Below the pieces are notes generated by a model, which worked only from the letters and a program-made list of their open reading frames with translations, searched no databases and was not told the DNA's origin. Below, piece by piece: positions 912-23,441 of a stretch of 26,746 nucleotides of DNA. The DNA comes from a virus. Where the stretch lies: positions 1 to 26,746 of IMG/VR virus record IMGVR_UViG_3300046836_000655, one strand, 5' to 3'. The translations under genes were made by a program, and so were the position numbers. Numbering within the stretch: position 1 is the stretch's first letter; every line of letters begins with the position of its first letter.

Positions 912-928
912 CATTTCCACATTCGCGG

Positions 929-2090: not shown

Positions 2091-2105
2091 GGCGAGAATA
2101 TAGCC

Positions 2106-5273: not shown

Positions 5274-5303
5274 AACTAAGCCATTCTTTGGGCATTGTTA
5301 TGC

Positions 5304-7210: not shown

Positions 7211-7254
7211 ACTGCTTCCTTGAACACACCCACTATTCCGATCATCGTTGTGCG

Positions 7255-8073: not shown

Positions 8074-8119
8074 CGCTGACACGGGTTCGGCGGCCGATAC
8101 TCGCATTCATGTCCGAATC

Positions 8120-9438: not shown

Positions 9439-9667
9439 CGCGTCACCTCTCGGAAATCCGGCTCGCCGTTGTGGACGTACAGCGTGACGCCAAGCTCGTG
9501 TTCCGCGTAGTCGGCTGATCGCCAGCATTTTGCGGCACGCGATGATCGCATCCATGCCCGCGCCGTACATCACGCGGTCGCTGATGCTGATGCCCTGCAG
9601 CCCATCGCCGTTCTTCCGCGCGAGGTCGCGCAGCTCTTCGCAAAGATTCGAACGAGCGAACCGTCAT
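9435..9667 (-). pseudogene. Frame-disrupted small gene of the replication block
   Basis: An ATG at 9667 overlaps the upstream stop (ATGA), and a TGA at 9435-9437 overlaps the downstream ATG (ATGA), as expected for one intact gene here. The two ends are in different frames. Protein-like sequence is found in pieces: MTVRSFES from the first frame, then LCEELRDLARKNGDGLQG and MYGAGMDAIIACRKML in a second, then ADYAEHELGVTLYVHNGEP and FREVTR in a third. Joining them needs two single-base skips, one near the TTT at about 9640 and one between the AAAA run near 9530 and about 9510. Both look like extra bases. This may be a decayed gene, recoding or a sequencing error. The rejoined product would have about 77 residues. 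An uninterrupted 74-residue frame (9443-9667) is also open but Arg-rich. Confidence 0.6.
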
Positions 9668-9894
9668 CGCTTCCGCCCTCCCTTCGCCTTGAGCTGGGCC
9701 TTCACGGTCGCGAGGTCATCGGTCAGCCGCCGGATCTCGACGTCGCGGACCTCGGACACGGTTCGCAGCTGCTCGTGCGAGAGCGCGATCGCGAGGAAGC
9801 GCTCTTTCAGATCCGATCCGGCGAGCGGATAGCGTTTCGCGGCGTCGACCCACGAGGCCACGTCTTTCGCGGGGACGATCGTGGAGTCAGACAT
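9664..9894 (-). CDS. Small coiled-coil protein, 76 residues
   Basis: The ATG at 9894 starts a product of 76 residues reading MSDSTIVPAKDVASWVD, then a helical part and a C-terminal coiled-coil-like segment (VRDVEIRRLTDDLATVKAQL) ending in a basic tail, KAKGGRKR. It overlaps the preceding Cys-rich gene by eight bases and the next gene by four. The heptad-like spacing of hydrophobic residues suggests a dimer. No family is recognised. Confidence 0.6.
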   Translation of the reverse strand: MSDSTIVPAKDVASWVDAAKRYPLAGSDLKERFLAIALSHEQLRTVSEVRDVEIRRLTDDLATVKAQLKAKGGRKR

Positions 9895-10210
9895 CGTTCC
9901 ACGCCTCGGCGCGCATTGCGGTGGATCCAACCGCCTCGCGACCGGGCAGAGGATGCGATTGGCACCAATCAGGCGAGTTGGTGCAATGCCACGATCCGCA
10001 CTCGCCGCGGCACCAGTTGCAGACGACGTTGTCCTCGGGATTCAAGCAGCAGCAGCAGTCTTCGCCGCAGTCGTGGTGGCTGTAGCCTTCCCCGCCGCAG
10101 TTCGAGCAGTTCACGAACTCGGCATCCCCGCCGCAGCGAGCGCATGACGCCGCCTCGCCCTCTTCGCCCTCGTATCTGAACCATTCGATCCCGCCGCGAA
10201 TTTCGCTCAT
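9887..10210 (-). CDS. Cys-rich zinc-finger protein (DnaJ-like CxxCxGxG motifs)
   Basis: The 107-residue product contains a run of Cys pairs: CARCGGD, CSNCGGEGY, a CCCC stretch within GEDCCCCLN, CNWCRGECG and a final WHC / WCQSH. The CxxCGGEG form matches the zinc modules of DnaJ-type cysteine-rich domains, so two or more zinc ions are likely bound. Without a J domain it is not a chaperone of that type. It may bind RNA, DNA or protein. The ATG at 10210 overlaps the previous stop by four bases. Confidence 0.7.
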   Translation of the reverse strand: MSEIRGGIEWFRYEGEEGEAASCARCGGDAEFVNCSNCGGEGYSHHDCGEDCCCCLNPEDNVVCNWCRGECGSWHCTNSPDWCQSHPLPGREAVGSTAMRAEAWNDV

Positions 10211-10476
10211 CGGCGCCCCGGCAACAGCCGAAACATCGTCGGCGCCTCGTACACGAACTCCGGCACCGTGCGCCGGTAGTCGTCGATCGCGCGCAGCACG
10301 CGCTTGCCCTGCTTCTCCGCCCGCTCCCGCTCGATGCGATACGCGGTGATCGCTTCGCGGCGCTTGGGATCGTCGAGCGCCTGACGACGAGCGGCTGCGG
10401 CCCGGGCCACGCGTTCAGCGGCTTCGCGTTTTCGCTGGGCGCGCTCCTGGCCGAGGATCTCGCTCTGGCTCGGCAT
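10207..10476 (-). CDS. Basic helical protein, 89 residues
   Basis: The start ATG at 10476 shares one base with the stop of the previous gene (TGATG). The product is almost entirely helical and very rich in Arg, Ala, Glu and Lys (AQRKREAAERVARAAAARRQ), then IDDYRRTVPEFVYEAP at the C-terminal end. A charged single helix or coiled coil that could bind nucleic acid is likely. No family is recognised. Confidence 0.6.
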   Translation of the reverse strand: MPSQSEILGQERAQRKREAAERVARAAAARRQALDDPKRREAITAYRIERERAEKQGKRVLRAIDDYRRTVPEFVYEAPTMFRLLPGRR

Positions 10477-10838
10477 CAGCGCGCGGCCTCACGCTTCGCA
10501 CGCTCGAGCGCGCGCTCGTATCGCTTCGCCTTGCGGTACGACTTCCCGCGGAAGCCGACCTCCCACGCGATGTTCAAGAACTCGCGCTTCGTGGCGTTGT
10601 CGCTGAGTGTCGGCTTCGAGCGCGGGCTGACCTTGACCGACGTCGGCTCGTACCGCTCCTGGTGCTGTCGTCGCTCCATGCCGCGCGGATTCACCTTCCG
10701 CGTTGATGCGATGCCGCGATTGCGATACCCGCGCTCACGCCCTGTCTTCCGGCGCGTCGGGAGTCGCTGCGACGGGACGAGGAAATCCGTCTGCTTCCAG
10801 GAGCGCTTGCCGCGAATGCGGTTTGTTGGAGCGGTCAC
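10476..10838 (-). CDS. Basic hypothetical protein, 120 residues
   Basis: The GTG at 10838 overlaps the stop of the STAS-like gene by four bases. The product is strongly basic throughout (NRIRGKRSWKQTDFLVPSQR, RRKTGRERGYRNRG) and ends with a conserved-looking helix pair, KREFLNIAWEVGFRGKSYRK and YERALERAKREAAR. The basic character suggests nucleic-acid binding. A longer frame starting at 11366 runs through the STAS-like gene in another phase and is rejected. Confidence 0.55.
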   Translation of the reverse strand: MTAPTNRIRGKRSWKQTDFLVPSQRLPTRRKTGRERGYRNRGIASTRKVNPRGMERRQHQERYEPTSVKVSPRSKPTLSDNATKREFLNIAWEVGFRGKSYRKAKRYERALERAKREAAR

Positions 10839-11269
10839 GCGAAGGCCTCGGGAGAATGGGGCGTGGTCGGAAACGCGGTCACGACGAGGTTGTCGATCCG
10901 CGGGAGTGCGTCGAGCACGACGGCCAGCTCCTCGGCCACGATGCTGAGCGTGAGCGAGCCGCGTCGCGGGAGGTGGCGCAGCTCGTTCGCGAGCTTCACG
11001 ACGTAGCCGAGCCCTTGCGATGTCGCGTCCTCGCCACGCACCGCGGCGCAGTCGAGCACGACGTCGGTAATGCCGGCCGCGAGCTGGTCGGAGACGAGGA
11101 TCAACAGCCGGCGCATCGTCGGGCCGTCGAGCGTCGGCATGGTCACGAAGAGATCCGCCCGACCGTCCGCGTGCATCTTCCGCGCGACGGCGAGGAAGCA
11201 CGGCGGCGCGAGGAGGCCACTGGCGAAGCGGCGCTCCGTGGTGGTGATCGGCACCCTGTGCGTCCTCAT
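10835..11269 (-). CDS. STAS-domain-like protein (anti-sigma-antagonist fold)
   Basis: The 144-residue product shows the order of a STAS domain: a strand DLFVTMP at about 39-45, DGPTMRRLLILVSDQL as first helix, the strand TDVVLDCAAV at 68-77, then DATSQGLGYVVKLANELR at 81-98. The last aligns with the D-S-S-G-L-G helix start that carries the phosphorylated Ser in SpoIIAA/RsbV-type antagonists. A strand SLTLSIVA follows, then a helix AVVLDALPRID and NLVVTAF. STAS antagonists bind kinases or anti-sigma factors. In a phage this could act on host sigma regulation, but function cannot be read from the sequence, and the expected phospho-Ser is replaced by a nearby Thr-Ser pair. It overlaps neighbours by four bases on both sides. 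Confidence 0.5.
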   Translation of the reverse strand: MRTHRVPITTTERRFASGLLAPPCFLAVARKMHADGRADLFVTMPTLDGPTMRRLLILVSDQLAAGITDVVLDCAAVRGEDATSQGLGYVVKLANELRHLPRRGSLTLSIVAEELAVVLDALPRIDNLVVTAFPTTPHSPEAFA

Positions 11270-11460
11270 GCCGGCACCTCAGCGTGCATCGCGTCCCAGG
11301 CGAAGCGCGCCAGCTCGTCGATCGTCGCGTCGAGGTTCGCGTTCGCCACGAACAGGGCCTCGCCACATGGCGACGTCCGCGCGCGCATCTCGCGCTCGTG
11401 CTTCTGCAGCACGTTCCGGGTCCGCTCGGCGAAGCCGGTGACGAAGTCGTCGCGCGTCAC
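11266..11460 (-). CDS. Small helical protein, 64 residues
   Basis: The GTG at 11460 overlaps the previous stop by four bases and the TGA overlaps the next ATG in the same way. The product is helical, with TRDDFVTGFAERTRNVLQKH at the start and NLDATIDELARFAWDAMHAE at the end. It has no Cys pair and no membrane segment. No family is recognised; the two overlaps are the main support. Confidence 0.55.
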   Translation of the reverse strand: MTRDDFVTGFAERTRNVLQKHEREMRARTSPCGEALFVANANLDATIDELARFAWDAMHAEVPA

Positions 11461-12065
11461 GCGGTCATCCGCGAGCCAGAGTAATCCGGCGTGCCGCCGA
11501 GGCGTTTTTGCGCGGCCGGCATGGCGCGCTGTTCCGCCGTCTTCTCGATCAGCGCCTTGACCGTCGCGTCGGCCCGTTCGAGCGCCAACGAGGTCTGCCG
11601 TTCCTCCTCCGCGTGGAGGCAGCTCGCCGTATACGCTTCGACGAACCGCTGCCGGGCCCACTTCACGTCGACCTCGAGGATGTTCTCGAGCTCGCGCCGG
11701 CCCCCGGCGGCGTGAAACGCCCGAGTCGTCGACGCGCCCAGCGCGAGCGTCTTCTCGCGGCGATCGTCGGGCGAGATTCGGGGATCGTTCCAGATCGCCA
11801 GCACGCGCTCGAACGCCTCGGCCGCGTCGAGCGTCGGGTTGGGAACCGGCGCGATGAGCTCCACCAGCTGCGCCGGAGACGGCCAGTTGCGATACGCCGC
11901 GTCCCAGGTCTTGAACGCCAGCGCCGTCGCGGCGTAGAACTGCTCGGTCGTGAGCTCGGCGTTCAGCTGCCGGAAGTACTCGGCCTGGACGGGCGGCTCG
12001 AGTTCGCGGCCGATGCGGCCGGCGAGCAGTGCCATGCGTTGCAGGAAAATCTCCTTGTCGATCAC
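11457..12065 (-). CDS. Replication-associated, helicase-loader-like helical protein
   Basis: The GTG at 12065 overlaps the initiator-like gene stop by four bases. The 202-residue product begins with LLAGRIGRELEPPVQAEYFR and then LTTEQFYAATALAFKTWDA followed by NWPSPAQLVELI. This order of short helices ending in a W/F-P-S/T-P-A-E/Q-L motif is common in phage proteins that sit after a replication initiator and are thought to load or partner the helicase. The rest is helical and charged. No AAA+ motif is present, so it is not a DnaC-type ATPase. Confidence 0.5.
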   Translation of the reverse strand: MIDKEIFLQRMALLAGRIGRELEPPVQAEYFRQLNAELTTEQFYAATALAFKTWDAAYRNWPSPAQLVELIAPVPNPTLDAAEAFERVLAIWNDPRISPDDRREKTLALGASTTRAFHAAGGRRELENILEVDVKWARQRFVEAYTASCLHAEEERQTSLALERADATVKALIEKTAEQRAMPAAQKRLGGTPDYSGSRMTA

Positions 12066-12955
12066 AGACCCTCCAGGGCGGCTTTGCCAGCGAGGTAGGA
12101 CCGTTCTCCGGGACCCGGCGCGGTAGGCGTGGTGCGGTACGGCGATTCGGGCTGGCCGGGCGGTGATCGTTCGGCGGCGATCGCGCGGCGCACGTATTTG
12201 CGAAAGAGCGCGGCGTTCCAGTCGCAGCCATTCGCGTTGAAGTCGCGGATCGCCACGCCCATCTCGACGGGCGTCGGCTGCAGCGGTTCTCCGCCGTCGA
12301 GGTACATCGCCACCGAGGCGACGACGCCGAGCTTTCTGCCGGATCGGGCGACGAGCGCAGTCAGCGCGGTGCGATCGGCGTCGGACGCAAGGCGCTCCGC
12401 GAGCGACGCTTCTTGGACCGGCCGCCACGAGCCGCCGTTCGCGCCCGCGGAAGAAGAGGCCTGTTGTAGTTCTTCGTTTCGTAACGTCTCGTCTTCGTTC
12501 GCGCGTGCGGGTTGCACTGTCCGCGTGACTGTCGGCGGAATGTCCGCAGGGTTGTCCGCGTGACTTTCCGCGTGACTGGCGGCGAGTCGTTCGCGCTCTT
12601 TCCGCTCACGTTCCAGCCGCTTCCGTTCACGCTCTGCGGCGCGGCGCGATTCGAGTTTGCCCGCGTACTCGTCCCACTCGTTGACGCACCCGTCGCCGTC
12701 AAGGTGTTGCGTGCGAATGAATTGAGCGAAGCGGCCGGGCTTCTTTCCGCGTCCGCTCCATCCCGCCCACATCTCGAGTTGCCGGTCGGTTCGCTGCCCG
12801 ACGAGGCCCTCCGTCGCGTACTGCGAGACCGCGCCCCAGAACTGGACAAGGAGCCCAATCGCTTCATGATGCGTGACACCGAGTGCATGGACAGCGCGAT
12901 CGACAACTGGCTTGTCGACGAGGTTTGCGTGTACACGGATCCAGGGCTCAGCCAT
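12062..12955 (-). CDS. Phage replication initiator-like protein
   Basis: The 297-residue product starts with PWIRVHANLVDKPVVDRAVH, then a winged-helix-like region (HHEAIGLLVQFWGAVSQY, QLEMWAGWSGRGKKPGRFAQ). This is the pattern of N-terminal replisome-organiser/DnaD-like domains that bind the origin. A basic coiled-coil linker (RRAAERERKRLERERKER) and a disordered Ser/Ala/Thr stretch follow. The C-terminal helical part contains VEMGVAIRDFNANGCDWN and ALFRKYVRRA. Such proteins usually carry their origin within or near the gene; no clear iterons were seen. It begins the long coupled block down to 8120. Confidence 0.6.
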   Translation of the reverse strand: MAEPWIRVHANLVDKPVVDRAVHALGVTHHEAIGLLVQFWGAVSQYATEGLVGQRTDRQLEMWAGWSGRGKKPGRFAQFIRTQHLDGDGCVNEWDEYAGKLESRRAAERERKRLERERKERERLAASHAESHADNPADIPPTVTRTVQPARANEDETLRNEELQQASSSAGANGGSWRPVQEASLAERLASDADRTALTALVARSGRKLGVVASVAMYLDGGEPLQPTPVEMGVAIRDFNANGCDWNAALFRKYVRRAIAAERSPPGQPESPYRTTPTAPGPGERSYLAGKAALEGL

Positions 12956-13036
12956 GTCGATTCGAGCCCTCCGGGCCGACGTCGAGGTTTTTGGCGCCCG
13001 GGGTTTCGACCGAAAAACAGCGTCTTCGTCGACGGT

Positions 13037-13441
13037 TCATCTGGTCGCGGTCTCCTCGGGATCGAGCATGGGCCGAGACATCGGGACCGGCGATTTTGTG
13101 ATGCTCTCGACGAAGCGGATCACCCTGGTGATCGCGCGCAACGGAAGGCGCCCGATCGCGCGGTGGACGCGCTCGAGTTCATCGGTGATCAGCTCGTGGC
13201 AGCTTCGGCATAGGCAACGAAGCTCGTCGTCTTCGTACTCCCACGGCGCCGCACCGGCGCGATAGTACCGGTGATGAACGTTCAGGCCGCTCAAATCGCC
13301 GTTGGGATCGAACGCGAGCCCGCACTCGTCGCAGGCGTAGCTGGCGAGAGCCATGATCTCTTCGCGGCGCGCGAGCCAGCGCCAATCGGAGAGCATTTCA
13401 CGGTACGTCGGGCGGCGGCCGGACTCGCGGTAGGCGCTCAC
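13037..13441 (-). CDS. HNH endonuclease-like protein, 134 residues
   Basis: The GTG at 13441 has a ribosome site, GGAGG, six bases upstream. The product shows a zinc-bound HNH fold: CDEC at 37-40, LNVHHRYYRAG with the catalytic His pair at 56-57, then LRCLCRSCHELI giving a second Cys pair at 78-81 and His82. HNH proteins cut or nick DNA; in many phages one acts with terminase, but this gene is far from terminase and next to attP and the replication genes. An 81-bp gap follows before the initiator. Confidence 0.75.
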   Translation of the reverse strand: MSAYRESGRRPTYREMLSDWRWLARREEIMALASYACDECGLAFDPNGDLSGLNVHHRYYRAGAAPWEYEDDELRCLCRSCHELITDELERVHRAIGRLPLRAITRVIRFVESITKSPVPMSRPMLDPEETATR

Positions 13442-13494
13442 GCCGCGCCTCCGCTTCTATAGAACAGCCCCTTCCCCGAACGGCAGTAAACAAC

Positions 13495-13513
13495 CGGGGA
13501 AGAAATCGGGGAA
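13495..13513 (+). repeat. Left copy of att-flanking direct repeat
   Basis: The 19 bases CGGGGAAGAAATCGGGGAA match those at 13686-13704 with one difference and lie 73 bases left of the att core. Each copy itself contains CGGGGAA twice. An inverted partial copy (TTCCCCG) lies at 13472-13478. The position, one copy on each side of the core, fits arm-type integrase binding sites. Confidence 0.6.
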
Positions 13514-13586
13514 CTTTGGCTGACTTTCGGGCGGGTTTCGCTGTTGTTCGGGGCAGGTTCACAGAGGGTCGAGACAGCCGCGACCC

Positions 13587-13630
13587 GACTGTTAATCAGA
13601 AAGTTCCAGGTTCGAGTCCTGGCGCCCCAG
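13587..13630 (+). other. attP core: 3' half of a tRNA-Asn (GTT) gene
   Basis: The 44 bases reproduce a tRNA from the end of its anticodon stem to the discriminator base. They hold the loop CTGTTAA with anticodon GTT at 13591-13593, stem half TCAGA, a perfect T-arm CCAGG-TTCGAGT-CCTGG and acceptor half CGCCCCA followed by G73, as in tRNA-Asn. No full tRNA can be folded: the bases before it do not pair (only 3 of 5 in the anticodon stem and a poor acceptor arm). A T-run follows at 13632-13636. This is the usual form of a phage attP that restores the 3' end of the host tRNA gene on integration, and the integrase gene ends 32 bases away. Direct repeats flank it on both sides. Confidence 0.85.
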
Positions 13631-13661
13631 CTTTTTACAGCATCGGCAGTTACGCGGTTGC

Positions 13662-14714
13662 TCATGCTTCGCTCGGGATCGCGGTCGGGGAAGAAACCGG
13701 GGAAGTGGGGACAGGAATCGTCAGAAAGGCGGCGATTTTGACCGCGTCCTCTTTGACGAACGCAGCCACCTCGTGGCGCTCGTACTGGTCGGTGACGTCC
13801 TTCGAGCCGTGCCCCATGTAGAGGCGTCGGCGCGTGCGCGGGACGCCGGCCGACTCCATCCAGCGGGAGTACGTGCGGCGCAGATCGTACGGCGTGATCG
13901 TCCCCGAGAATCGTTTGCGCATCGACTTCTCGAACCAATCGCGGGAGATCTTCGCGACCGCGGGAACGCGGACGAGCGGCACTTCGCGGAGCCTGCCCTT
14001 CCGTTTGGTGCCGCCGATCACGACGCGATCGCTCTCGACGTGCCACGGGCCGTAGTACTCCTTCGTGCCCATGCCCGTCGTCATCAAGGCCCATGCGATC
14101 GCGTCGACGGCGTCGGTCTCGGGGTGCGGGAAGTTCCCGCGCATCGCGTCCGGTGTGTGATAGGCGCGCGGGGCTGAGGGTGCGACCTTCCGCGCTTCGA
14201 CCGCGGCGCAGCTGATGTAGACCGGGTGCGATCGTTTGAGCGTCGCGCGCACGAACGCGAGGGCGTGGGCGCGCGCGAGGTTAAAAGAGCGCGGGTGCTT
14301 GATCCCGAGCGTCTTCCGGAGCTGCTCGAGCACCTTGGGCAGATCGGCGATGCGCGCTTTTTTGTTCGCGCGCTCGAAGTAGCGGCGCGACGTCTCGAGC
14401 GCGACCAGGTGCTTCGAGGAATACTCGTTCGTCTCGCCCGCGATCCAGGCCTTCATGGAATCGGCGACGAGCGGCATGGCGTCACCGACCGGGAGCTCGT
14501 GGAGCGCCTGACGCTTGTACGCGTCGTAGGTCGAGGCGAACGTCACTTGCCGCGCCTTGATGGCGCGCAGGATATCGAGCCGCCCCTGGTCATACAGGTC
14601 GCTCAGCATGCGCTCATAGCGCGTGCGCTGCTTAGGGTCGGTCGTGCCGCTCGCAAGGTTGATCCGGCCGACGTCACGGAAGCGCCGGTCGATGCGCATC
14701 GTCTCGGGTGTCAC
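13662..14714 (-). CDS. int: Tyrosine-type site-specific integrase
   Basis: The GTG at 14714 overlaps the stop of the small HTH gene (GTGA), giving 350 residues; a frame to 14768 exists but is less likely. The N-terminal part binds core DNA (SMKAWIAGETNEYSSKHLVAL). In the catalytic domain TGMGTKEYYG at 213-222 aligns with the usual first Arg box (TGLRxxE), where Gly replaces Arg. The beta-hairpin Lys is in GGTKRKGR (Lys237). Box II reads PYDLRRTY (Tyr276, Arg279) with Tyr in place of the common His. LYMGHGSKDVTDQY gives His302 and the nucleophile Tyr311. The enzyme integrates and excises the phage at the adjacent tRNA-Asn site. The last 20 residues overlap one arm-type repeat. Confidence 0.88.
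   Translation of the reverse strand: MTPETMRIDRRFRDVGRINLASGTTDPKQRTRYERMLSDLYDQGRLDILRAIKARQVTFASTYDAYKRQALHELPVGDAMPLVADSMKAWIAGETNEYSSKHLVALETSRRYFERANKKARIADLPKVLEQLRKTLGIKHPRSFNLARAHALAFVRATLKRSHPVYISCAAVEARKVAPSAPRAYHTPDAMRGNFPHPETDAVDAIAWALMTTGMGTKEYYGPWHVESDRVVIGGTKRKGRLREVPLVRVPAVAKISRDWFEKSMRKRFSGTITPYDLRRTYSRWMESAGVPRTRRRLYMGHGSKDVTDQYERHEVAAFVKEDAVKIAAFLTIPVPTSPVSSPTAIPSEA
13686..13704 (+). repeat. Right copy of att-flanking direct repeat, inside int
   Basis: The 19 bases CGGGGAAGAAACCGGGGAA differ from the left copy at one position and lie 56 bases right of the att core, within the last codons of the integrase gene. Being in coding sequence, the repeat is preserved both as DNA site and as protein tail (VSSPT region). 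Confidence 0.6.
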
Positions 14715-14932
14715 GCGGCCACCCTCTTTTTCGCGCGCTGCGCGAGGATGTCGAGCACGAGGCCCCACTGCAGCCGGCGGTCGCGCCCGATCTCGATCCA
14801 GGGAAGGTTGAGCTGCTCGACCTTCTCTTTGCTGATGCGGAGCGCGGCCATGACGTGTTCCGGCTGCACCATCGCGTCGTGCGGGAAGGTGACGAGCGGC
14901 GGGAACGCGGTGTCGTTGGTTGGCGTCGTCAC
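14711..14932 (-). CDS. Small helix-turn-helix protein, excisionase candidate
   Basis: The 73-residue product has a DNA-binding-like core: VQPEHVMAALRISKEKVEQL followed by PWIEIGRDRRLQWG. The helix-turn-helix followed by a short wing (I-E-I-G-R-D-R-R-L-Q-W) is the layout of MerR/excisionase-type proteins. It is coupled to int by a GTGA overlap and starts with a GTG overlapping the gene before it. Directionality factors are usually small, basic and next to int, so this is a reasonable candidate for controlling excision. It could also be a transcription factor. Confidence 0.55.
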   Translation of the reverse strand: MTTPTNDTAFPPLVTFPHDAMVQPEHVMAALRISKEKVEQLNLPWIEIGRDRRLQWGLVLDILAQRAKKRVAA

Positions 14933-16308
14933 GTCTGCATCGCCGGCTGGTAGTCCTCGGCGCGTTGGATCCCGAACGTCCAGGCTACGGCTTCGCGCGC
15001 GGTCGTCATGGTCGGCGGAACACGAAGTGAGTAGCGCCTGTACGTGCCGTCCGGCTCAGGCGTCGAGTTGACGACGCGCACCATCACTAGATCGGTGTCG
15101 TTTGGCCGCGTGATCCGGAACAGCTCACCGTAGTCGTCGGCCTGCTCGCGGACCGCGCCGGTGTCAGCCAGGTAGCGCTCGTAGCCGTAGCGCTCGGTCA
15201 TGACTCGCCGGACTTCGGCGTTCTCCTCCTGCTGAATGTGGGCGACCGTGATCCAGTCGGGCCGAACGATCACGAACGCCGGGACTAAGACGCCGTGCCA
15301 GAAGTAAAGGCGTTCGACATCCGACTCGAGGGCGGCCGTCTCGGCGGAATGCAGGCGCCGACCGGTCGGGATTTCCTCGACGTGCACGGCAGGCTTGGAA
15401 AACCAGAACAGCGTGTCGTCGGTGAACTGCATCGTCCACGCGCCGGCCAGAAACGCGTCGTAGATGTGCCGAGCCCAGGGCATCTGGTCGCTCGTCCCGA
15501 GCTGCTCGGCGCCGATATGCGTGCACGCCAGATAGGACAGCTCCTGATACCACCAGTACCAGCGAGACTGCAGGCACCACTGGGAGAATCGCTGGAGCGC
15601 ATTCCCTCGTCGGACGGAGTCCGACGCATCGCGAGCATCGCGAGCATCGCGAGCATCGAGAGCATCGAGAGCATCGAGAGCAGCGCGAGCATCGCGAGCA
15701 TCGCGAGCATCGAGAGCATCGAGAGCATCGAGAGCAGCGCGAGCATCGCGAGCAGCGCGAGCATCGCGAGCATCGCGAGCATCGAGAGCATCGCGAGCAT
15801 CGAGAGCAGCGCGAGCATCGCGAGCAGCGCGAGCATCGCGAGCATCGCGAGCATCGAGAGCATCGAGAGCATCGAGAGCAGCGCGAGCATCGCGAGCATC
15901 GAGAGCATCGCGAGCAGCGCGAGCATCGCGAGCATCGAGAGCATCGCGAGCATCGCGAGCAGCGCGAGCATCGCGAGCAGCGCGAGCATCGCGAGCATCG
16001 CGAGCATCGCGAGCAGCGCGAGCATCGAGAGCAGCGCGAGCATCGCGAGCAGCGCGAGCATCGCCGCCGGCGACTTCGCCGCGGCGCACGGCGAAGTCAT
16101 CGAGCACGCGTCCGGCGTACCGGACGAGCGACGGTTGTTCGCCGACGTGCCAGTCCGGTCCCAGCCGGACAATCTGCCGCTCGACGCCGAGCGCCTTCAG
16201 ATATGAGCGCAGCGCGTCTTCGACGGCCCGTTCGTCGAGCCGTCCAGGGTAGTCGCAGGCATCGGCGAACGCCTGCACGATCGGCTTCATCTCTGCGCGC
16301 CGACCCAT
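14929..16308 (-). CDS. DUF6745-like protein with internal DAR-repeat tract
   Basis: The ATG at 16308 lies two bases after the stop of the gene before it, giving 459 residues. The first 80 residues are ordinary (FADACDYPGRLDERAVEDAL). The next 144 are 48 copies of a three-residue unit, Asp/Ala-Ala-Arg/Leu. The remaining 230 residues form a conserved-looking domain with CLQSRWYWWYQELSYLA, LYFWHGVLVPAFVIVRPDWI and ENAEVRRVMTERYGYERYL, which resembles DUF6745, a domain of unknown function seen in bacteria and phages. The RYG and I-x-x-E-x-N-A-E-V-R-R pattern is its usual mark. It lies directly after the QGDV gene, a recurrent partner. The tract could form a long charged helix between the two folded parts. 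Function is unknown. Confidence 0.7.
   Translation of the reverse strand: MGRRAEMKPIVQAFADACDYPGRLDERAVEDALRSYLKALGVERQIVRLGPDWHVGEQPSLVRYAGRVLDDFAVRRGEVAGGDARAARDARAALDARAARDARDARDARAARDARAARDARDALDARDARAARDALDARDARAALDALDALDARDARDARAARDARAALDARDALDARDARDARAARDARAALDALDALDARDARDARAALDALDALDARDARDARDASDSVRRGNALQRFSQWCLQSRWYWWYQELSYLACTHIGAEQLGTSDQMPWARHIYDAFLAGAWTMQFTDDTLFWFSKPAVHVEEIPTGRRLHSAETAALESDVERLYFWHGVLVPAFVIVRPDWITVAHIQQEENAEVRRVMTERYGYERYLADTGAVREQADDYGELFRITRPNDTDLVMVRVVNSTPEPDGTYRRYSLRVPPTMTTAREAVAWTFGIQRAEDYQPAMQT
15631..16062 (-). repeat. Coding minisatellite: 48 tandem copies of a 9-bp unit
   Basis: The plus strand reads as 48 uninterrupted units of GCGAGCATC, with only two variable positions: base 2 is C or A, and base 8 is T or C. 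All four combinations occur, coding on the minus strand DAR, AAR, DAL or AAL. A block of six units (AAL DAL DAL DAR DAR DAR, 54 bp) occurs three times, twice in direct succession at the 15631 end of the tract, showing higher-order duplication. A 9-bp step keeps the frame on expansion or loss, and no frame on either strand contains a stop within the array. Confidence 0.97.
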
Positions 16309-16310
16309 TG

Positions 16311-16721
16311 TCAGTCGGCGACCTGGATCGGCTCTTCGGCGTCGGACCATTCCCGCTGACGCAGCACGACGAAGCGTTCGCCGGCGGCCAGTGGGATCGT
16401 CGCGTGCTCTTCGTGGCGGAGTTCTGCGGCCTCATCGACTTCGAGCAGGCCAACGACTTCCTCGTCGCGAATCTCGGCCTTGAGCCCGACGGACGCCAGG
16501 AGCTGCTTCGCGGCCGCGGCGTCGCTGATCGCACGCAGCGTGACCTTCGGCGATTCGATCGCGTGCGCGTGCCCGGTCACTTCGCCGTAGGCGAGCACGA
16601 TGCGACCCTTGTCCCGGGCGAGGGTCTTGCCGGCCGTCGCCGCGGCGACGGCGATCAGGAGCACGTCGCCCTGACGAAGCATTCTGGGGGGAGTGGATGT
16701 CGGACGCTTTCGTGTAGTCAT
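16311..16721 (-). CDS. QGDV-type conserved protein, partner of DUF6745
   Basis: The 136-residue product begins with a basic Thr/Pro segment, then RQGDVLLIAVA, and a central motif AYGEVTGHAHAI. The C-terminal part has AELRHEEHATIPLAAGERFV and VVLRQREW. In bacteria and phages proteins with QGDVLL, GEVTGHAHAI and RHEEHAPI motifs are found beside DUF6745 genes; this is a remembered association that could not be searched here. The several conserved His could bind a metal. The gene ends two bases before the DUF6745-like start, so the two are probably made together. The function is unknown. Confidence 0.65.
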   Translation of the reverse strand: MTTRKRPTSTPPRMLRQGDVLLIAVAAATAGKTLARDKGRIVLAYGEVTGHAHAIESPKVTLRAISDAAAAKQLLASVGLKAEIRDEEVVGLLEVDEAAELRHEEHATIPLAAGERFVVLRQREWSDAEEPIQVAD

Positions 16722-16776
16722 GTGGCCAATCCTCTGGGTCGAACAGGTGGAGTGCTACGGGAGAACTTCTAAAGAG

Positions 16777-17217
16777 TCATCCGGCGGCGTAGAGCCATGG
16801 CTGGCCCATCGCCAGGAACTTGTCAGGATCCTCCTCCGCCTCTGCGCGCGTGATCTCGGCGCCGCCGTAGTACGACGCGAAGAACCCGCAGACGTAGGGC
16901 ACGAACCACGGCGAGTGCGCCCAGAGCCACGGCCGCTCCGGAATCACGCGGCCCTGAATCGTGAGATGACAGCTCTGGCATAAGGCGAGCAGGTTCCACC
17001 ATGGATTCTGGCCCTTGTCGCCGGTGAGATGGTGGACCGTCAGAATGCGGAGCTTCCCGTCGCGCGGATGCGTGCACCGCTCGTCGCAGGGCATGCGAAC
17101 GTCCGGCGTATCGCCGCCAGGGTGGAAGCAGCGAATACACCGCTCGCCCGCCTCGGCGCGCACTGCGTTGTGCAGCGCCTTGCGATCGGGGACGTACTCG
17201 CTGCGGAAACGGGACAC
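16777..17217 (-). CDS. HNH nuclease-like protein, 146 residues
   Basis: The product has a zinc-bound HNH motif: CIRC at 27-30, two more Cys at 44 and 48, then RILTVHHLTGDKGQNPWWN with the His pair at 62-63 and Asn near 71-75, and CQSCHLTIQG. This is the layout of stand-alone HNH enzymes that nick or cut DNA. The GTG start at 17217 has no clear ribosome site. It sits between the metallopeptidase and the QGDV gene and may be a homing-type or accessory nuclease. Confidence 0.72.
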   Translation of the reverse strand: MSRFRSEYVPDRKALHNAVRAEAGERCIRCFHPGGDTPDVRMPCDERCTHPRDGKLRILTVHHLTGDKGQNPWWNLLALCQSCHLTIQGRVIPERPWLWAHSPWFVPYVCGFFASYYGGAEITRAEAEEDPDKFLAMGQPWLYAAG

Positions 17218-17228
17218 GGAATCGCGAC

Positions 17229-17903
17229 CTAGTTGACCGTGGAGGGCGTCGACGCCTTCTCGATCGGCGCCGAGAAGATGTCCAACTGACGCGCCTTCTC
17301 GATCGACGAGGCGAAGCGCTCGACGTCCGTCGACCAGAACCCCCAGCGCCGCACGATCGAGCCGAACTCCTCGATGTCGTGTTCGACCATCTCGTACGAC
17401 CCTCCGGTCCCCGACTCCGCGCGCGCGAAGTGCGTCAGCTCGTGGTCGATCAGCGCGATGCGCCGCTCGGCCGTCATGTTCTGCCAGACTTCGTGGTTGA
17501 CCTCGATCAAGAGATCGAGCTCCGTGAAGTAGTTGAGCTTCCCGCCGATCTTGGACGCCTTCGCCCCGATCGACTTGTCGTGCGTCTTGATTGCCTTCCG
17601 GAAGACGACCGCGAGTTGCGCGTTCTGCAGCTCAATGTGCAGCGCCCTCGTCAGCACCTTGGCGATCGCCGCAGGCTGCTCGGCCTTCACGTACGTCGCG
17701 TCGTCGTCCCACACCGGCGGGAACGGCGTCGCGCACGCCTTGAGCAGCTCGTCGTGATAGGACCGCAACGCGTCGGGGAGACGCAGCGACTTCGGTGCGG
17801 CGAGTTCGTTCGCCTTGGCGATCGTCGCGTCGAGACGTTTGCCCGACTCTTTGCGGAGCCCGCTCTTGGAGCGGTCGGCGGCGGGGGTTGGCGTTGCGGT
17901 CAT
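17229..17903 (-). CDS. Putative phage metallopeptidase
   Basis: With the ATG at 17903 the product has 224 residues. The zinc peptidase signature HELTH is at 154-158 in IALIDHELTHFARAE, and a strand LDLLIEVNHEVWQNM lies before it. The N-terminal part is a polar linker and a helical region (LPDALRSYHDELLKAC). This matches the group called putative phage metallopeptidase, found next to recombination and replication genes in temperate phages; the substrate is unknown. It may cleave a host or phage regulator, a role seen for some related ImmA/SprT-like proteins. A longer frame to 18053 is Pro/Arg-rich and rejected. Confidence 0.75.
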   Translation of the reverse strand: MTATPTPAADRSKSGLRKESGKRLDATIAKANELAAPKSLRLPDALRSYHDELLKACATPFPPVWDDDATYVKAEQPAAIAKVLTRALHIELQNAQLAVVFRKAIKTHDKSIGAKASKIGGKLNYFTELDLLIEVNHEVWQNMTAERRIALIDHELTHFARAESGTGGSYEMVEHDIEEFGSIVRRWGFWSTDVERFASSIEKARQLDIFSAPIEKASTPSTVN

Positions 17904-17965
17904 CGGTTGTTCGCTCGGCGTTAGATGGAGGGATGGAACGGGTAACAGCGGGAGAACGGGAGAGG

Positions 17966-19621
17966 TTAGGCGGCGCGCTCTTCGGTGGCCGGCACGCGGA
18001 GGTTGGCTTGGATGATCGCCGCAGCGAGCGGCGGGCAGACAGAATTCCCGCACATCCGCACCTGCGCGGTCTTGGTCATCGGCTTGCCGTTGAACTCGAT
18101 GTCGATCTTGTACGAGTCGGGGAATCCCTGCGCGCGGTAGAGCTCACGCGGAGCAAGCATCCGCATGCCGATGTCCGCGATCTGATACTCGATTCCCTCA
18201 ACCGTCACGAGGCCGAACCGGTCGCGCGGCGTGACCGTCGGCGCCGGCGCGTCGAGCCGACCGCTGGCCTGGTCGGTCCCGTAGTACGAGATCAGGAAGG
18301 CGCGGACCTCGGCGATGTGGCCGCCGCCGCGATCGTTCGCAGTCACGGTCGGCATCGGGAGCTCGAGCTGCGCGCCGTGCCTCGCGGTTCCGTAGAACTT
18401 CGTCAGATGCGACGTGACGATCGCCTTATTCACGTGCCCGGCGATCGTGTGCATCGGGTCGTCGAGCATCTGGCCGGTCGCTTCGTTGCCGCCGTTGTGC
18501 TTCGCGAGATACGCCGCGACAAGGTCGCCGCCGTTGCCGGTAGGAACGATGGCGGGCGCGGGTAACTCGAGCGATCGCGCGCGCGGCGCCTGCCCCAAGC
18601 CGCCTCGGCGCGACGGATCAGGATCCTCGCCGTAGCGCGGCTTGAGGAATGGTGCGATGAGCGCAGCGTTCGATTCGGCGAGGATCGTGCGGTGCGGGAG
18701 ATCGGCCGACCGCGGCTCGCCCTGGTACGCCGGACCGCCAGAGCCGACGACGTACGGCACGACGAGCGCATGCTCTCCGCGCTTTGCGCCGGTCACCGTG
18801 CGCAGCGGCTCGTCGATCGAGTGCGCGCGCGCGTCGCCGCGATGCGTTGTCGGGACGATGAATGGCCGCGGCGCGTCGATGACGTACCGCTGAATGCCCC
18901 GGGCAATGCGCCTCATCGTGTTGTCGGCAAGCGGCTTCGCGCGTTCGAAGATCGACGGGCACGGAAGCGACCAGTCGATGCACTCGGCAGCGGTCCGCCA
19001 TGGCGCGGTCTTACCCTTTCCGTGCGTCGCCGCCGGCCATGTGATCGGCTGGCCGTCAGAGCGCGCGACCAGGAACAACCGTTTCCGAATCGTCGGCGCG
19101 CCGTAGTCGCACGCGCGCAGCTCGCGCCACTCGACGACGTAGCCGAGCGCGGTCAGGCGCCGGACGAAGGCGCGAAACGTGTGGCCCTTGCGCGCTGGAC
19201 ACGGACGGCCCGTCTCGCGTGAGACCGGACCCCACGTCTGAAACTCCTCGACGTTCTCGAGCACGATCACGCGTGGCCGTACGGCCACGGCCCAGCGGAC
19301 AGCGGTCCACGCGAGGCCGCGGATCTTCTTGCTGACCGGCTTCCCGCCCTTGGCCTTCGAGAAATGCTTGCAGTCGGGCGAGAGCCACATGAGACCGACC
19401 GGCCGGCCAGCGCACGCTTCGACGGGATCGACGTGCCAGACGTCTTCGGGATAGTGCACCGAGTCCGGATGGTTCGCGCGGTGCAGCGCGATCGCCTCGC
19501 GGTCGTGGTTGATCGCGACGTCCGGTCCCCGGCCGAGCGCCCACTGGATGCCGAGCGAGGCACCGCCGCCGCCAGCGAAGCTGTCGACGACGATCTCGCC
19601 CGGTTGAAGCGATCCGTGCAC
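17966..19621 (-). CDS. DNA (cytosine-5) methyltransferase
   Basis: The 551-residue protein starts at a GTG two bases after the RecT gene stop. Motif I is DSFAGGGGASLG (residues 13-24). The catalytic loop is SPDCKHFSKAKG with Cys84, PDC replacing the usual PPCQ but typical of large phage enzymes. Motif VI is LENVEEF (121-127), and an R-K-R-L-F motif follows. The C-terminal half contains a variable target-recognition part, then APRELYRAQGFP and CGNSVCPPLAAAII (motifs IX-X). The enzyme transfers methyl from SAM to cytosine in phage DNA, protecting it against host restriction. No restriction endonuclease is visible beside it, so it is an orphan methylase. The target sequence cannot be read. Confidence 0.88.
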   Translation of the reverse strand: MHGSLQPGEIVVDSFAGGGGASLGIQWALGRGPDVAINHDREAIALHRANHPDSVHYPEDVWHVDPVEACAGRPVGLMWLSPDCKHFSKAKGGKPVSKKIRGLAWTAVRWAVAVRPRVIVLENVEEFQTWGPVSRETGRPCPARKGHTFRAFVRRLTALGYVVEWRELRACDYGAPTIRKRLFLVARSDGQPITWPAATHGKGKTAPWRTAAECIDWSLPCPSIFERAKPLADNTMRRIARGIQRYVIDAPRPFIVPTTHRGDARAHSIDEPLRTVTGAKRGEHALVVPYVVGSGGPAYQGEPRSADLPHRTILAESNAALIAPFLKPRYGEDPDPSRRGGLGQAPRARSLELPAPAIVPTGNGGDLVAAYLAKHNGGNEATGQMLDDPMHTIAGHVNKAIVTSHLTKFYGTARHGAQLELPMPTVTANDRGGGHIAEVRAFLISYYGTDQASGRLDAPAPTVTPRDRFGLVTVEGIEYQIADIGMRMLAPRELYRAQGFPDSYKIDIEFNGKPMTKTAQVRMCGNSVCPPLAAAIIQANLRVPATEERAA

Positions 19622-19623
19622 CG

Positions 19624-20745
19624 TCAGCCCTCGCCCGTCGGGCCGAACTCGCCCGCCGGCACGAGCTTCTCGAGTTCGGCGATCTGGCTCTCGGCATCCG
19701 CCGCGGCGTAATCCTTCCGGCCCGCGGCGCCGGCGACACGCTCCCGCGTGGCGTCGTCGACGTCGGCGGAGTCGAGCAGCTGCGTGATGCGCGCCTTCTG
19801 CTCGGGCGTGGCCTTCGCGGGGAGCGATCGATTCGTCAGCTCGTAGCTCGCGGAGCCCGCGGCCTCCGTTACTTCCGCGGGCAGTTCGCTCCGAGGCGCG
19901 GAGAGCTGACGCTGCTCGCCGCCGGTCGCCAATGCGTTCGGCGCGTCGATCTCCTCGAGCGCGGCGACTTCCTCAGCCTCGAACGCGCGGAGCACTTCGG
20001 CCAGCTTAGGCGTCGTCGGCAGCAGCTTGCAGATGCGGTGCACGCACGTCTTAAGGCCGTACCAGGGGATCTCGTCGAGCGTGTATGGCACCTTGCTGTT
20101 GTTGACCCAATGCTCTTTCCACGACTTCGAGTACTGCATGCGCACCTGGTCGACCTCGTCGCGGCTCATCACGAACACGCGAACGTCGTCGCGGCTGATC
20201 TTCGCCACGGCGTAGAATCCGATCAACTTTCCGCGCTTCCCCATGCCGGCGGGGCGGTGGCGGACGAACGGCGATGAGCCGAGCTCGTACTCGAACTCGT
20301 CGCCCTCGTGGACGGCTTGCGCGTCGATGAACCGCGCGGCGCCGGCGCGAATCGCCATCGTGGCGTCGCCCTTGTAGTCGCGCACGGCCTGGCACCGCGT
20401 CTCCCACTCCCACTCACCGTTCCCGTTCTTGACCTTCGTCTTGAACGGGACCAAGTGCGCGAGGACGCCGATCTCGAGATCCCATCGCGTGCACTGCGCC
20501 ACTGCCATCACGAGACTGGCGTCGGTGCAGTTCTGCAGCTCGGGATTCTTCTGAATGGCGAAGTACGTCTCGGCGAAGATGCGCTCGATCGTCACACCGG
20601 TCGGCAGCATGGATTCGATCAGCCGGCGCGCCTCGGGCTTGGTGAGCGCAGCGAGCTCTTTCGTCTTCGCGCGTTCGGTCATCGAAGGCGCGGGCGGTTC
20701 GACGGTCGCGACCGCGCGGGTGTTGGAACGAACGGCGTTCGTCAT
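19624..20745 (-). CDS. recT: RecT-family single-strand annealing protein
   Basis: The ATG at 20745 has a good ribosome site (AAGGA) and overlaps the previous stop by four bases, giving 373 residues. A longer frame to 20994 is an Arg-rich shadow. RecT features are the N-terminal helix-rich part (RRLIESMLPTGVTIERIFAE), NPELQNCTDASLVMAVAQC, a core strand region (VKNGNGEWEWETRCQAVRDY), and VHEGDEFEYELG, then the segment near SKSWKEHWVNNSKVPYTLDE and RICKLLP at the end of the annealing domain. It anneals complementary strands in phage recombination. The C-terminal 100 residues are polar and less conserved. Confidence 0.88.
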   Translation of the reverse strand: MTNAVRSNTRAVATVEPPAPSMTERAKTKELAALTKPEARRLIESMLPTGVTIERIFAETYFAIQKNPELQNCTDASLVMAVAQCTRWDLEIGVLAHLVPFKTKVKNGNGEWEWETRCQAVRDYKGDATMAIRAGAARFIDAQAVHEGDEFEYELGSSPFVRHRPAGMGKRGKLIGFYAVAKISRDDVRVFVMSRDEVDQVRMQYSKSWKEHWVNNSKVPYTLDEIPWYGLKTCVHRICKLLPTTPKLAEVLRAFEAEEVAALEEIDAPNALATGGEQRQLSAPRSELPAEVTEAAGSASYELTNRSLPAKATPEQKARITQLLDSADVDDATRERVAGAAGRKDYAAADAESQIAELEKLVPAGEFGPTGEG

Positions 20746-22016
20746 GCGGACTTCCTTGTCAAAGAGTCGGTGTGATGCTTCGTGAGTGGCGTGGCCCATT
20801 GATCGGGCGGCGGACCCGCTGCTTCCGGGCCGTACGCGTCGACGACGTGCTGATGCATTCGCGCGAGGGATCGGCGCCGGTCCGCGTCGCCGGCCAGGAC
20901 GGCGCCGAGTTGCTCGTCGTCGGCATCGTCGGGGGACAGCGCCGGCGCGTATTCGTTGGCAAAGATTGGATCGCCGAGCTCCTCGGCTGACCACTGCTCG
21001 CGGTCGGCGCGCAATGCTAGCGGGCTCGCCGATACGGTCTGGACCGCCGCGGGCCGGCGAACGTCAAGACGAAGAAAGAGCGTGCGGCGCTCGAACACGC
21101 GGAGCGCCTTCTGGTTCAGCGCATGCTCAACGTCGCTGCGGACGCCGAGGATTCGGAGCCGGACGACCGCGTCGTCGATCGGCTGCGAGCCGAGCGCGTC
21201 CGCGATCGCCCGATCGAGTTGCTCGGGCGTGAGGCCCTCGCCGTAGAGCGGGTCGAGATCGATGAAGCGCCGGCCTGGCGTCAGCTCGTGGAACGTTTCC
21301 GCGCCGGTCTCGAGGTCGACCTCGATAAAGCCTTTCGGCGTGCTAATCTCCTGCCACGGGTTCGAGCTGGTGAAGTCCAGCGAGCCCGAGTACGCCGCGT
21401 TGGGCGCGACGTGCTCAAACTGGTGGTAGTGACCCAGCGCGATCCACCTCCAGGCGTCGGCGCTCATCTCGTCGGGCGTGATCTCGGTGAGCGAGCACCG
21501 TGTGTCCGCCTTGGTCTGCTTCACGCCCATCGCTTCGCCGTGCAGGACGAGAATCTGCGGGCGATCGTCGAGCGGATCGGGCCGGAGGGAGGGTCGGCCG
21601 AGCCCCGGCACATCCGGCACGGCCAGGACGCAGAACTCGGGGAAGCGGAACCACATCGACTCGGCCCATGCGACGTAGACGTTCGGCAGTTCCGCGAAGA
21701 GCGGTAGCATCGACGATGCGTCAGTCCGCGCCCAATCGTGATTGCCGAGCGCCATCACTATCGCCGCCTTCGGCAGCGCACGGGTCAGGCGCGCGAACTC
21801 ACCAAAGGTGCGGACGACCACGCGATTCTTCGGAGAGGCGTGATGGAAGACGTCGCCCGCGACGGTGATCAGGTCCGGCTCGAGCTCGATCGCGCGATCG
21901 ACGAACCGCGAGAACGTCGCCGAGACATCGACGCTGCGCTGGTTCTCGCCCGTGGGCGCGAGCCGCTGGGAGGCTGTGTGGCCTAGATGAAGGTCGGCGA
22001 CGGCGAGCAGCTTCAT
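20742..22016 (-). CDS. SbcD/Mre11-like exonuclease (metallophosphoesterase)
   Basis: The 424-residue product has all five calcineurin-type metal motifs: DLHLG at 8-12, GDVFHH at 54-59, GNHD at 91-94, HGE at 159-161 and GHYH at 195-198. Two manganese ions would be held there. This is the nuclease fold of SbcD/Mre11, which cuts double-strand ends and hairpins. Beyond residue 260 the capping-like domain (TPEQLDRAIADALG) is followed by an acidic tail. No SbcC ATPase lies beside it. It is coupled to RecT, so it probably makes the single strands that RecT anneals, in place of RecE or lambda Exo. The ATG overlaps the upstream stop by four bases. Confidence 0.85.
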   Translation of the reverse strand: MKLLAVADLHLGHTASQRLAPTGENQRSVDVSATFSRFVDRAIELEPDLITVAGDVFHHASPKNRVVVRTFGEFARLTRALPKAAIVMALGNHDWARTDASSMLPLFAELPNVYVAWAESMWFRFPEFCVLAVPDVPGLGRPSLRPDPLDDRPQILVLHGEAMGVKQTKADTRCSLTEITPDEMSADAWRWIALGHYHQFEHVAPNAAYSGSLDFTSSNPWQEISTPKGFIEVDLETGAETFHELTPGRRFIDLDPLYGEGLTPEQLDRAIADALGSQPIDDAVVRLRILGVRSDVEHALNQKALRVFERRTLFLRLDVRRPAAVQTVSASPLALRADREQWSAEELGDPIFANEYAPALSPDDADDEQLGAVLAGDADRRRSLARMHQHVVDAYGPEAAGPPPDQWATPLTKHHTDSLTRKSA

Positions 22017-22852
22017 TCGACTGCTCCCAGCGCGACGGCCGAGGCGAGGAAGACGTCGAGCCGCGTGGCTTGCTTCGCCGCTTCCCAGGCGGCCAGGGAC
22101 GCCCAGCGCTCGGTCTCGGCGTTGCGCTGCTTCGATCGATGCTCGGCATAGAACGGATCCTGCTCGACGATCTTCTCGGCCGCGCTATTCGACGACGCGA
22201 GCCCCTGCTCCATAATCCGCTTGATGGCTTCCGGCTTGATGACGGATCTTTCGTCTTCAAGCTCCGAGACGCGGTTGTGTGTGCTCGCGCACCAGTTCGC
22301 GGCGCGATCGAGCGAGGCGATGGTCGCGCGGGCTCGTTCCTCGGCGGTCACCTTGCGCGGCGGATCGCTCCACGGCCCGCGTGGCGGCAAGGGATTGCCG
22401 GCGCGATCCGTCGTCGTCTCGCCCTCGTCGTCGAACTGCTGGAGGCAAGCGAAATGATGCTCGTGCTCGGCCGAGAGCTCCACTCCGAGCGCGTGCAGCG
22501 ATTCGATCCTGACCCAGAGATCCTTGCCGCACCCGCGGGTGCACTCGACTAGCAGGCAGAAATCGTCTTCTGGCCGAAGTGTGAACGTGAGGCCATCGAC
22601 CGTCGCACGATACTCGACGATCGCGTAGTTAATCATCGGGATTTCGTGCTCGACAACGGCGACCGTCTGCGGGTCGACGCCGAGGTGCCGCTCCGCCGCG
22701 CGTATGACGTCCTGGATGCGGCGGAGCGCCTCTTCGGCGCGGCGCGCTTCCCTGCCGGCCCTGATCGACGCTTCGACTTCGGCCGCTCGCGCTAGTGCAC
22801 GTTCGCGGAGCGTCGGCGCGCTCGGCGTCGATTCGATCAGCGCGGCGGTCAT
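22013..22852 (-). CDS. Recombination-operon protein with possible Zn site, 279 residues
   Basis: The ATG at 22852 overlaps the previous stop by four bases; the longer frame upstream is Arg-rich and rejected. The product has a helical N-terminal region (EVEASIRAGREARRAEEALR), a strand-rich centre, and a possible metal site CTRGCGK...HEHHFAC. The C-terminal half is a long charged helix (RVSELEDERSVIKPEAIKRI; EQDPFYAEHRSKQRNAETER) of the kind found in small phage proteins beside recT. It is translationally coupled to the SbcD-like gene, so a partner role is plausible. No catalytic residues are obvious. Confidence 0.6.
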   Translation of the reverse strand: MTAALIESTPSAPTLRERALARAAEVEASIRAGREARRAEEALRRIQDVIRAAERHLGVDPQTVAVVEHEIPMINYAIVEYRATVDGLTFTLRPEDDFCLLVECTRGCGKDLWVRIESLHALGVELSAEHEHHFACLQQFDDEGETTTDRAGNPLPPRGPWSDPPRKVTAEERARATIASLDRAANWCASTHNRVSELEDERSVIKPEAIKRIMEQGLASSNSAAEKIVEQDPFYAEHRSKQRNAETERWASLAAWEAAKQATRLDVFLASAVALGAVE

Positions 22853-23211
22853 GATCGGTGCTCCAGTCGAAACGCGATGCCGATCCGCCGCCCCGTCGTC
22901 GGCTCGCGCAACACGTTCTCGACGCGAATCGACTGATCCGCCTCGATCCCGCCGATGACGTCGAGGATCTCGCCCAGCGTCGTGCGCGGGTTCGAGAACT
23001 CGAGTGGCGGGATCGGCCCATGCTCGAGCACGATGCGCCGGCAGCGCGCTGCCTCCTGCGCTTCGATCATCCGCTCGCGCTGCGGCTCCGTCATCGCCGC
23101 GAGCAGCTCGTCGACGCGAGACTCGGGAGACGCAGCCTCGCTGAGCTGCGCGTTGTATGCCGAGTCCGACGTGAACGCGCCACGCGGACGAACAAAGGCG
23201 CCGGGGTTCAT
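22849..23211 (-). CDS. Hypothetical protein in recombination operon, 120 residues
   Basis: The product shows helices RVDELLAAMTEPQRERMIEAQ followed by strands and a helix GEILDVIGGIEADQSIRVENV. It has four-base overlaps with genes on both sides. No family, membrane segment or metal site is recognised. It belongs by position to the recombination operon. Confidence 0.55.
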   Translation of the reverse strand: MNPGAFVRPRGAFTSDSAYNAQLSEAASPESRVDELLAAMTEPQRERMIEAQEAARCRRIVLEHGPIPPLEFSNPRTTLGEILDVIGGIEADQSIRVENVLREPTTGRRIGIAFRLEHRS

Positions 23212-23441
23212 CGCGCCCCCCGCGCGCGCTTCTTGGCGCGGCGCTGCTCCGTCTTCGTCCGGCGCTCAGCGTCTGCGTAGAGCGTCGCGGCGCGCTGGAA
23301 CGCCACCCCGTAGGGCAGCAGATACGCCGTCCGACGTCGCGGCTCGCGGAGCCAGATCCCTTCCTTGTCGAGCATGACGACCAGCTCGTCACCGCGCGAC
23401 GTGCAGACCTTCCGGCGAACCGGTCGATTGAGCGGCGTCAC
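23208..23441 (-). CDS. Small basic protein, 77 residues
   Basis: The GTG at 23441 overlaps the previous stop (GTGA) and the stop overlaps the next ATG. The product has a strand-rich start (KVCTSRGDELVVMLDKEGIW; AYLLPYGVAFQRAATL) and a basic helix tail (RRTKTEQRRAKKRARGAR). The compact fold plus basic tail suggests a nucleic-acid-binding accessory. No family is recognised. Confidence 0.55.
   Translation of the reverse strand: MTPLNRPVRRKVCTSRGDELVVMLDKEGIWLREPRRRTAYLLPYGVAFQRAATLYADAERRTKTEQRRAKKRARGAR

Follow-up and report, generated by a model that had tools for sequence, protein, structure and literature searches.

A phage recT gene adjoins a gene for an SbcD/Mre11-like nuclease in place of a RecE- or Exo-type exonuclease

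In the virus DNA analysed here, the gene for a RecT single-strand annealing protein overlaps the gene for a nuclease of the SbcD/Mre11 type. This DNA, called the window below, is a virus record of 26,746 bases (G+C 67%) that may be a fragment. The pair is real in two phages, and it lies inside a clade of five phages whose SbcDs are without SbcC. We put at about even chances the reading that sbcD and recT form a two-gene recombination module of the phage, in which SbcD, without a phage SbcC, would process ends for RecT.

A first-pass annotation of this DNA had proposed that RecT stands beside an SbcD-type nuclease with no partner of the RecE or Exo type. Family searches in the window and in an overlapping contig, G001, confirmed this, and the interval that had been marked, 19624..22016, coincides with the recT and sbcD genes. 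No description of a RecT-SbcD pair was found in those parts of the open-licence literature that were searched.

Table 1. Genes of the module and its surroundings (gene or product, position in the window, strand, remarks).
sbcD/mre11-like nuclease gene	22016..20742	(-)	424 aa; phosphoesterase + capping domain + C-terminal tail
recT, ssDNA-annealing protein	20745..19624	(-)	373 aa; ATGA overlap 20742-20745 with sbcD
279-aa protein (p279), family not recognised	22852..22013	(-)	directly upstream of sbcD; ATGA overlap 22013-22016
C5-cytosine DNA methyltransferase	19621..17966	(-)	551 aa; next gene downstream of recT, same direction

The genes treated here all lie on the minus strand, sbcD being followed by recT and preceded by p279 (Table 1). 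The four-base overlap of sbcD and recT, already reported by the annotation, is real and reads ATGA. Alone, of course, it is weak evidence, because neighbouring genes of the operon overlap likewise; 4-bp overlaps also join the upstream ORFs 23441..23208, 23211..22849 and 22852..22013. Downstream of recT come the C5 methyltransferase, which is probably context outside the module, then a phage metallopeptidase, a DUF6745 protein, an integrase-like gene, a replication initiator, and the large terminase subunit. The DUF6745 protein (14929-16350, minus strand, 473 aa, 2.3e-44) contains a low-complexity stretch; such a protein would be unusual in a phage. The integrase-like gene (13662-14768, minus strand) matches Phage_integrase at 6e-4, below the cut-off, and is 36% identical to a gene of the related contig G043. 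This suggests a temperate phage. A scan for promoters and terminators gave matches at chance level.

The contig G001 (locus L003), which came from a scan with the terminase, has 38,675 bp and is 99.99% identical to the window across positions 1-15907. It represents the same phage and lengthens the left end of the window by ~22.8 kb, giving ~49.5 kb for the two together.

The family matches of the nuclease are clear but distant. Its sequence matches Metallophos in Pfam at 1.5e-9 and phrog_100 ("SbcD-like") at 2e-14. It matches TIGR00619 (sbcd) at 4.8e-17 with 62.6 bits, under the curated cut-off of 77.65, and would thus be a divergent member. All five of the phosphoesterase motifs that the annotation had claimed are there (DLH at residue 8, GD at 54, GNHD at 91, LHG at 158, and GHYH at 195), with 8/8 metal-ligand positions canonical. 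At position 92, three relatives in the same clade (L093, L094, and L117) have Asp for Asn. Twelve PDB sequences match the protein, named SbcD, Mre11, or "exonuclease, putative"; by their titles, the entries of the last name are T. maritima Mre11. The same structures are matched by a profile of 18 relatives, with values reaching 8e-45.

An AlphaFold2 model (mean pLDDT 80, pTM 0.75) places the phosphoesterase domain at residues 1 to ~250 and the capping domain up to ~322, leaving a tail of ~100 residues that is predicted with low confidence, largely below 50. When aligned with MjMre11 by VIA-align, residues 1-322 of the model, cap included, give Z 27.1 and an rmsd of 3.4 A over 282 residues. Generic phosphoesterases reach Z <=18.9, over the first domain only. 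Thus, the protein is predicted to have the Mre11 fold, with a capping domain of the Mre11 type rather than of the small-phosphoesterase type. Its tail (104 residues) gives E 28 or worse with three tail profiles. The tails of clades that have SbcC miss each other likewise, and comparison of tails as a sign of independence from SbcC was dropped as having too little power.

The assignment of RecT follows from PF03837 (6.6e-24, 85 bits against a cut-off of 24), phrog_148 (1.3e-46), and TIGR00616 (96.5 bits against 52.65). What adjoins RecT elsewhere was read in ten loci from named phages, picked by hand among 60 listed of 361 matching records. In these, the nuclease is YqaJ (6/10) or DUF3799 (4/10), and its gene lies directly upstream of recT in nine and one HNH gene away in the tenth. 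SbcD in the window occupies the place that YqaJ or DUF3799 holds beside these ten other RecTs. A survey of annealing proteins in Firmicutes likewise gives YqaJ, DUF3799, and DUF1351 as neighbours of recT, and SbcD is absent from its main text (PMC8093625).

AAA_23 (PF13476) and SbcC (TIGR00618) were both without a match when the window and G001 were searched, each on its own; no SbcC match lies within 4.7 kb on the sbcD side or in the rest of the ~49.5 kb, the genome being open at the window's right end. The family search thus bears out the annotation's remark that no SbcC is nearby. As refuting evidence it had named a gene for RecE, lambda Exo, or SbcC at another place in the phage; family searches of the ~49.5 kb found none, the right end being incomplete. 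YqaJ, DUF3799, and PDDEXK_1 have no match in the window, in G001, or in three related contigs (G041, G042, and G043), nor does PDDEXK_1, the one family of the three tested there, in a fourth (G051). SbcC, by PF13476 and TIGR00618, was found in 0/6 of these records; G042 and G051 each offered one loose candidate, which was scored and failed. Reading onward from SbcD revealed no start of an SbcC gene in L092 (~1.6 kb) or L094 (~0.5 kb).

The sensitivity of these searches has a limit. PF13476 scored above its cut-off in 14/14 control genomes, AAA_23 being a wider family than SbcC. In contigs G048-G050 (L100-L102), AAA_23 has matches, two of which (G048 and G050) are weak and below the cut-off, and TIGR00618 picked up the true SbcCs of contigs G036 and G003 only under its own cut-off. 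A divergent SbcC could, therefore, escape. Patterns for Walker A gave five matches in stretches of the clade phages, none of them SbcC-like. One belongs to an ATPase resembling HerA/DUF87 (L115, 13376-15217; 1.3e-5) in the SbcC-less phage G043. Archaeal HerA works with Mre11, and this ATPase is therefore a possible motor.

Finding relatives in viral contigs required an alignment; pattern scans with the single protein, SbcD of the window or p279, retrieved none there. With alignments, scans turned up 11 loci in viral contigs (including G036 and G003) and 5 in genome contigs, and a refined alignment gave 24 loci, 16 of them new. The terminase scan found 593 loci, of which 80 were kept; records of 40 were searched for SbcD, and 2 matched. 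The terminases of G036 and G003 are ~60% identical to that of the window, and both contigs have an SbcD relative followed by SbcC, with a small gene between them in G036. Among 377 genomes of one phylum, two matched at E 1e-20, one being the genome of L103.

A tree was built from the window and 22 of the 32 SbcD loci (L092-L107, L117-L132). The ten excluded loci (L100, L101, L102, L106, L107, L123, L124, L125, L128, and L132) are for the most part weak or truncated matches. With a midpoint root, the 23 sequences place the window with L092, L093, L094, and L117 in one clade (98/97). Adjoining it is a sister clade (100/98) of L095-L099 and L103, where SbcC lies within ~0.7 kb downstream of SbcD in every one of the six members. 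The four other members of the window's own clade come from contigs 41 to 43 kb long (G041, G042, G043, and G051). Among them, G042 (43.2 kb) has both ends in the same alanine-rich repeat frame, with 47 bases in common; because its ends fall in one repeat gene, it is probably circular and complete. This gene (L093, 12039-12818), with units like AAARAAAW, leaves the contig at one end and re-enters at the other.

In all four other clade members a gene abuts SbcD: RecT in one, a protein of a family here called A5 in two, and an unassigned protein in one. In L092, RecT (phrog_148, 6.8e-35) lies 5 bases upstream of SbcD, the gene order being reversed: SbcD comes before RecT in the window and after it in L092. 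The survey of phages for a RecT-SbcD gene pair that the annotation had suggested thus yielded one further phage, in the other order. In L093 and L094, an A5-family gene overlaps SbcD by 4 bases. In L117, the last base of the neighbour is the first of SbcD, and the neighbour matches phrog_10048, of unknown function. By Pfam, then, RecT is present in 2/5 clade phages (the window and L092); the neighbours in L093, L094, and L117 are not RecT by Pfam, so that a pairing with RecT itself has two phages behind it.

The two RecTs are mutual best matches among 13 RecTs, and they group together against ten RecTs paired with PD-(D/E)XK nucleases (100/99, and 100/100 without three long rows, long-branch warnings applying). 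From the ORFs of the window, only SbcD and RecT have a match in G041, the contig of the other RecT-SbcD phage, only SbcD in G042, and SbcD and the integrase-like gene in G043. When the ORFs of G001 1-20000 are included, G041 and G042 gain one match each. Between themselves, G042 and G043 have more genes in common; the comparison covered G041, G042, and G043. That only SbcD and RecT of the window match G041, and that these two RecTs group together, argues for a module rather than chance.

The A5 family occurs near SbcD in G036, G003, L096, L103, L093, and L094. As a RecT it was rejected: profile comparison gave 0.2% probability, the PDB held no sequence match, and four members tested had no useful match in PHROGs or Pfam. 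A model of the G003 protein (pLDDT 76, pTM 0.51) found nothing in Foldseek at E 0.001. Against lambda Redbeta, by VIA, it gave Z 6.2 and 4.8 A over 132/161 residues, tied with many unrelated helical rows. The model is suggestive only, and A5 may be regarded as a candidate annealing protein, possibly Redβ-like.

The annotation had proposed a two-component system with the 279-residue protein as a possible third part. The two-component reading gains from the place of SbcD where an exonuclease would be expected, from the failure to find SbcC or PD-(D/E)XK, and from the recurrence of SbcD without SbcC, beside RecT in one more phage and beside another protein in three. A role for p279 as the third part is unsupported because searches of phages, viral contigs, PDB, PHROGs, NCBIfam, and PADLOC gave it no relatives. 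Pfam gave a single match, TyrRSs_C at 0.019, below the cut-off, and tblastn gave none in loci L092-L107 or L117, which cover the SbcD regions of 4/4 sister phages. L118-L132 have coiled-coil proteins upstream of their SbcDs; a profile of ten of these gave no support for kinship with p279 (score -0.9), and the idea was dropped.

The RecT-SbcD pair departs from RecE/RecT and from SbcCD in one defining feature of each. As in RecE/RecT, YqaJ/RecT, and lambda Exo/Redbeta, a nuclease gene lies beside, and often overlaps, a gene for a RecT-family annealing protein. Unlike theirs, the nuclease in the window is an Mre11/SbcD metallophosphoesterase and not a PD-(D/E)XK enzyme, and its polarity as an exonuclease would be expected to be the opposite. 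What the SbcD of the pair has in common with SbcCD/Mre11-Rad50 and T4 gp46/gp47 is an Mre11 fold, as predicted, together with the cap and the metal site. It differs from these in that no SbcC/Rad50 was found, and in that its partner is RecT and not a strand-exchange protein (RecA/UvsX). Resection in phage T4 is ascribed to the gp46/gp47 complex (PMC3016280). In jumbo phages, SbcCD with both subunits is nearly universal, according to a survey (PMC7824862).

Closer at hand are the cassettes of the sister clade (G036, G003, L096, L097, L099, and L103), which have a related SbcD near a candidate annealing protein of the A5 family. They differ in that SbcC comes after SbcD, and Pfam did not assign the candidate to RecT in either of the two tested. 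Motif V differs as well (GDxH): its first His, a metal ligand kept in the remaining 17 rows of the tree, is replaced by Asp in 6/6 SbcDs of this SbcC-keeping clade. A cassette in L002 (7750-11412) has an SbcC-like ATPase (AAA_23 at 3.3e-19, with a weak zinc hook) followed by a small gene, RecT, and a gene that by eye resembles a metallo-beta-lactamase. As in the window, the partner of RecT is neither RecE nor YqaJ-like in the genes read. Unlike the window, it has an SbcC-like ATPase and no SbcD match in a 12.2-kb stretch, making it the mirror image. A second lineage of phage SbcDs (L118-L126, L128-L132) has, by eye, a gp32-like gene before SbcD in 14/14 loci and a RecA-like gene after it in the 12 loci that reach far enough, with families tested in L119 only.

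How else might an SbcD come to lie beside RecT? It might be one subunit of a hybrid complex that borrows SbcC/Rad50 from the host and, with it, processes ends for RecT. Mre11-family nucleases work best with Rad50 (PMC6265447), and AAA_23, wider than SbcC as it is, was present in each of the 14 control genomes. Also in its favour, L092, L093, L094, and L117 have a short motif in common in their tails beyond the cap, by eye a possible helix-loop-helix. The tail in the window, however, is without this motif and was missed by the three tail profiles, in a test of low power, and we hold the hybrid to be unlikely. Likewise unlikely, in our estimate, is that SbcD serves RecT otherwise than by end resection, acting on flaps, hairpins, or blocked ends ahead of annealing or following it, or that it attacks host DNA. 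The same source has SbcCD cutting hairpins and protein-blocked ends (PMC6265447), and a mycobacteriophage metallophosphoesterase, gp48, disrupts the integrity of host DNA (PMC12287305). The second lineage, with its gp32-like and RecA-like neighbours, also speaks for such roles. AAA_23 rose above the cut-off in L127 alone among the 16 records L117-L132 (one more was weak, and most records are short), and in four records of this lineage, of 42 to 74 kb, TIGR00618 was also without a match. SbcD without SbcC therefore occurs outside annealing modules too. Against a role other than resection, SbcD sits where resection exonucleases sit beside other RecTs, and its cap is predicted to be of the Mre11 type.

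That an SbcC is encoded beyond the right end of the window, leaving an ordinary SbcCD plus RecT, would fit the fragmentary state of the record and the closeness of SbcC to SbcD in the sister clade. Yet no match to one appeared in the ~49.5 kb or in the contigs of the other four phages of the clade, of which one is probably circular, and we consider this very unlikely.

Under the module reading, an SbcD-type nuclease without a phage SbcC/Rad50 would do the end processing otherwise done by a PD-(D/E)XK exonuclease (RecE, YqaJ, or lambda Exo). RecT would then anneal the exposed single strands, for example in joining replicated ends or repairing breaks. We infer here an SbcD that is active without Rad50, that acts on ends, and whose product feeds RecT. 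In Mre11/SbcD exonucleases, it is the 3' strand that is degraded (3' to 5'). If this polarity is kept, the tails left would therefore be 5' tails, opposite to those from RecE or Exo; an annealing protein could still pair them.

Established enzymes of the Mre11 family depend on Rad50/SbcC, which counts against the module reading: the exonuclease of SbcCD requires ATP binding, and the nuclease-and-cap part of SbcD without SbcC is mainly monomeric (PMC6265447). With ATP, SbcCD cuts hairpins as well as blocked ends and trims 3' termini (PMC6265447).

A bolder form of this reading is that a clade of phages shed Rad50/SbcC and that SbcD became, in these phages, a nuclease resecting on its own and dedicated to a neighbouring annealing protein, in a two-component system with the opposite end polarity (5' tails). 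This we hold to be possible but less likely than not.

From a natural pair of RecT with a nuclease of the Mre11 class one would learn that enzymes of unrelated folds can replace each other as the nuclease half of the module. Such a pair would also put to the test whether Mre11 does useful end processing without Rad50. RecT-type proteins are used in genome engineering with 5'-to-3' exonucleases; the pair described here could supply tools for recombineering with another end polarity.
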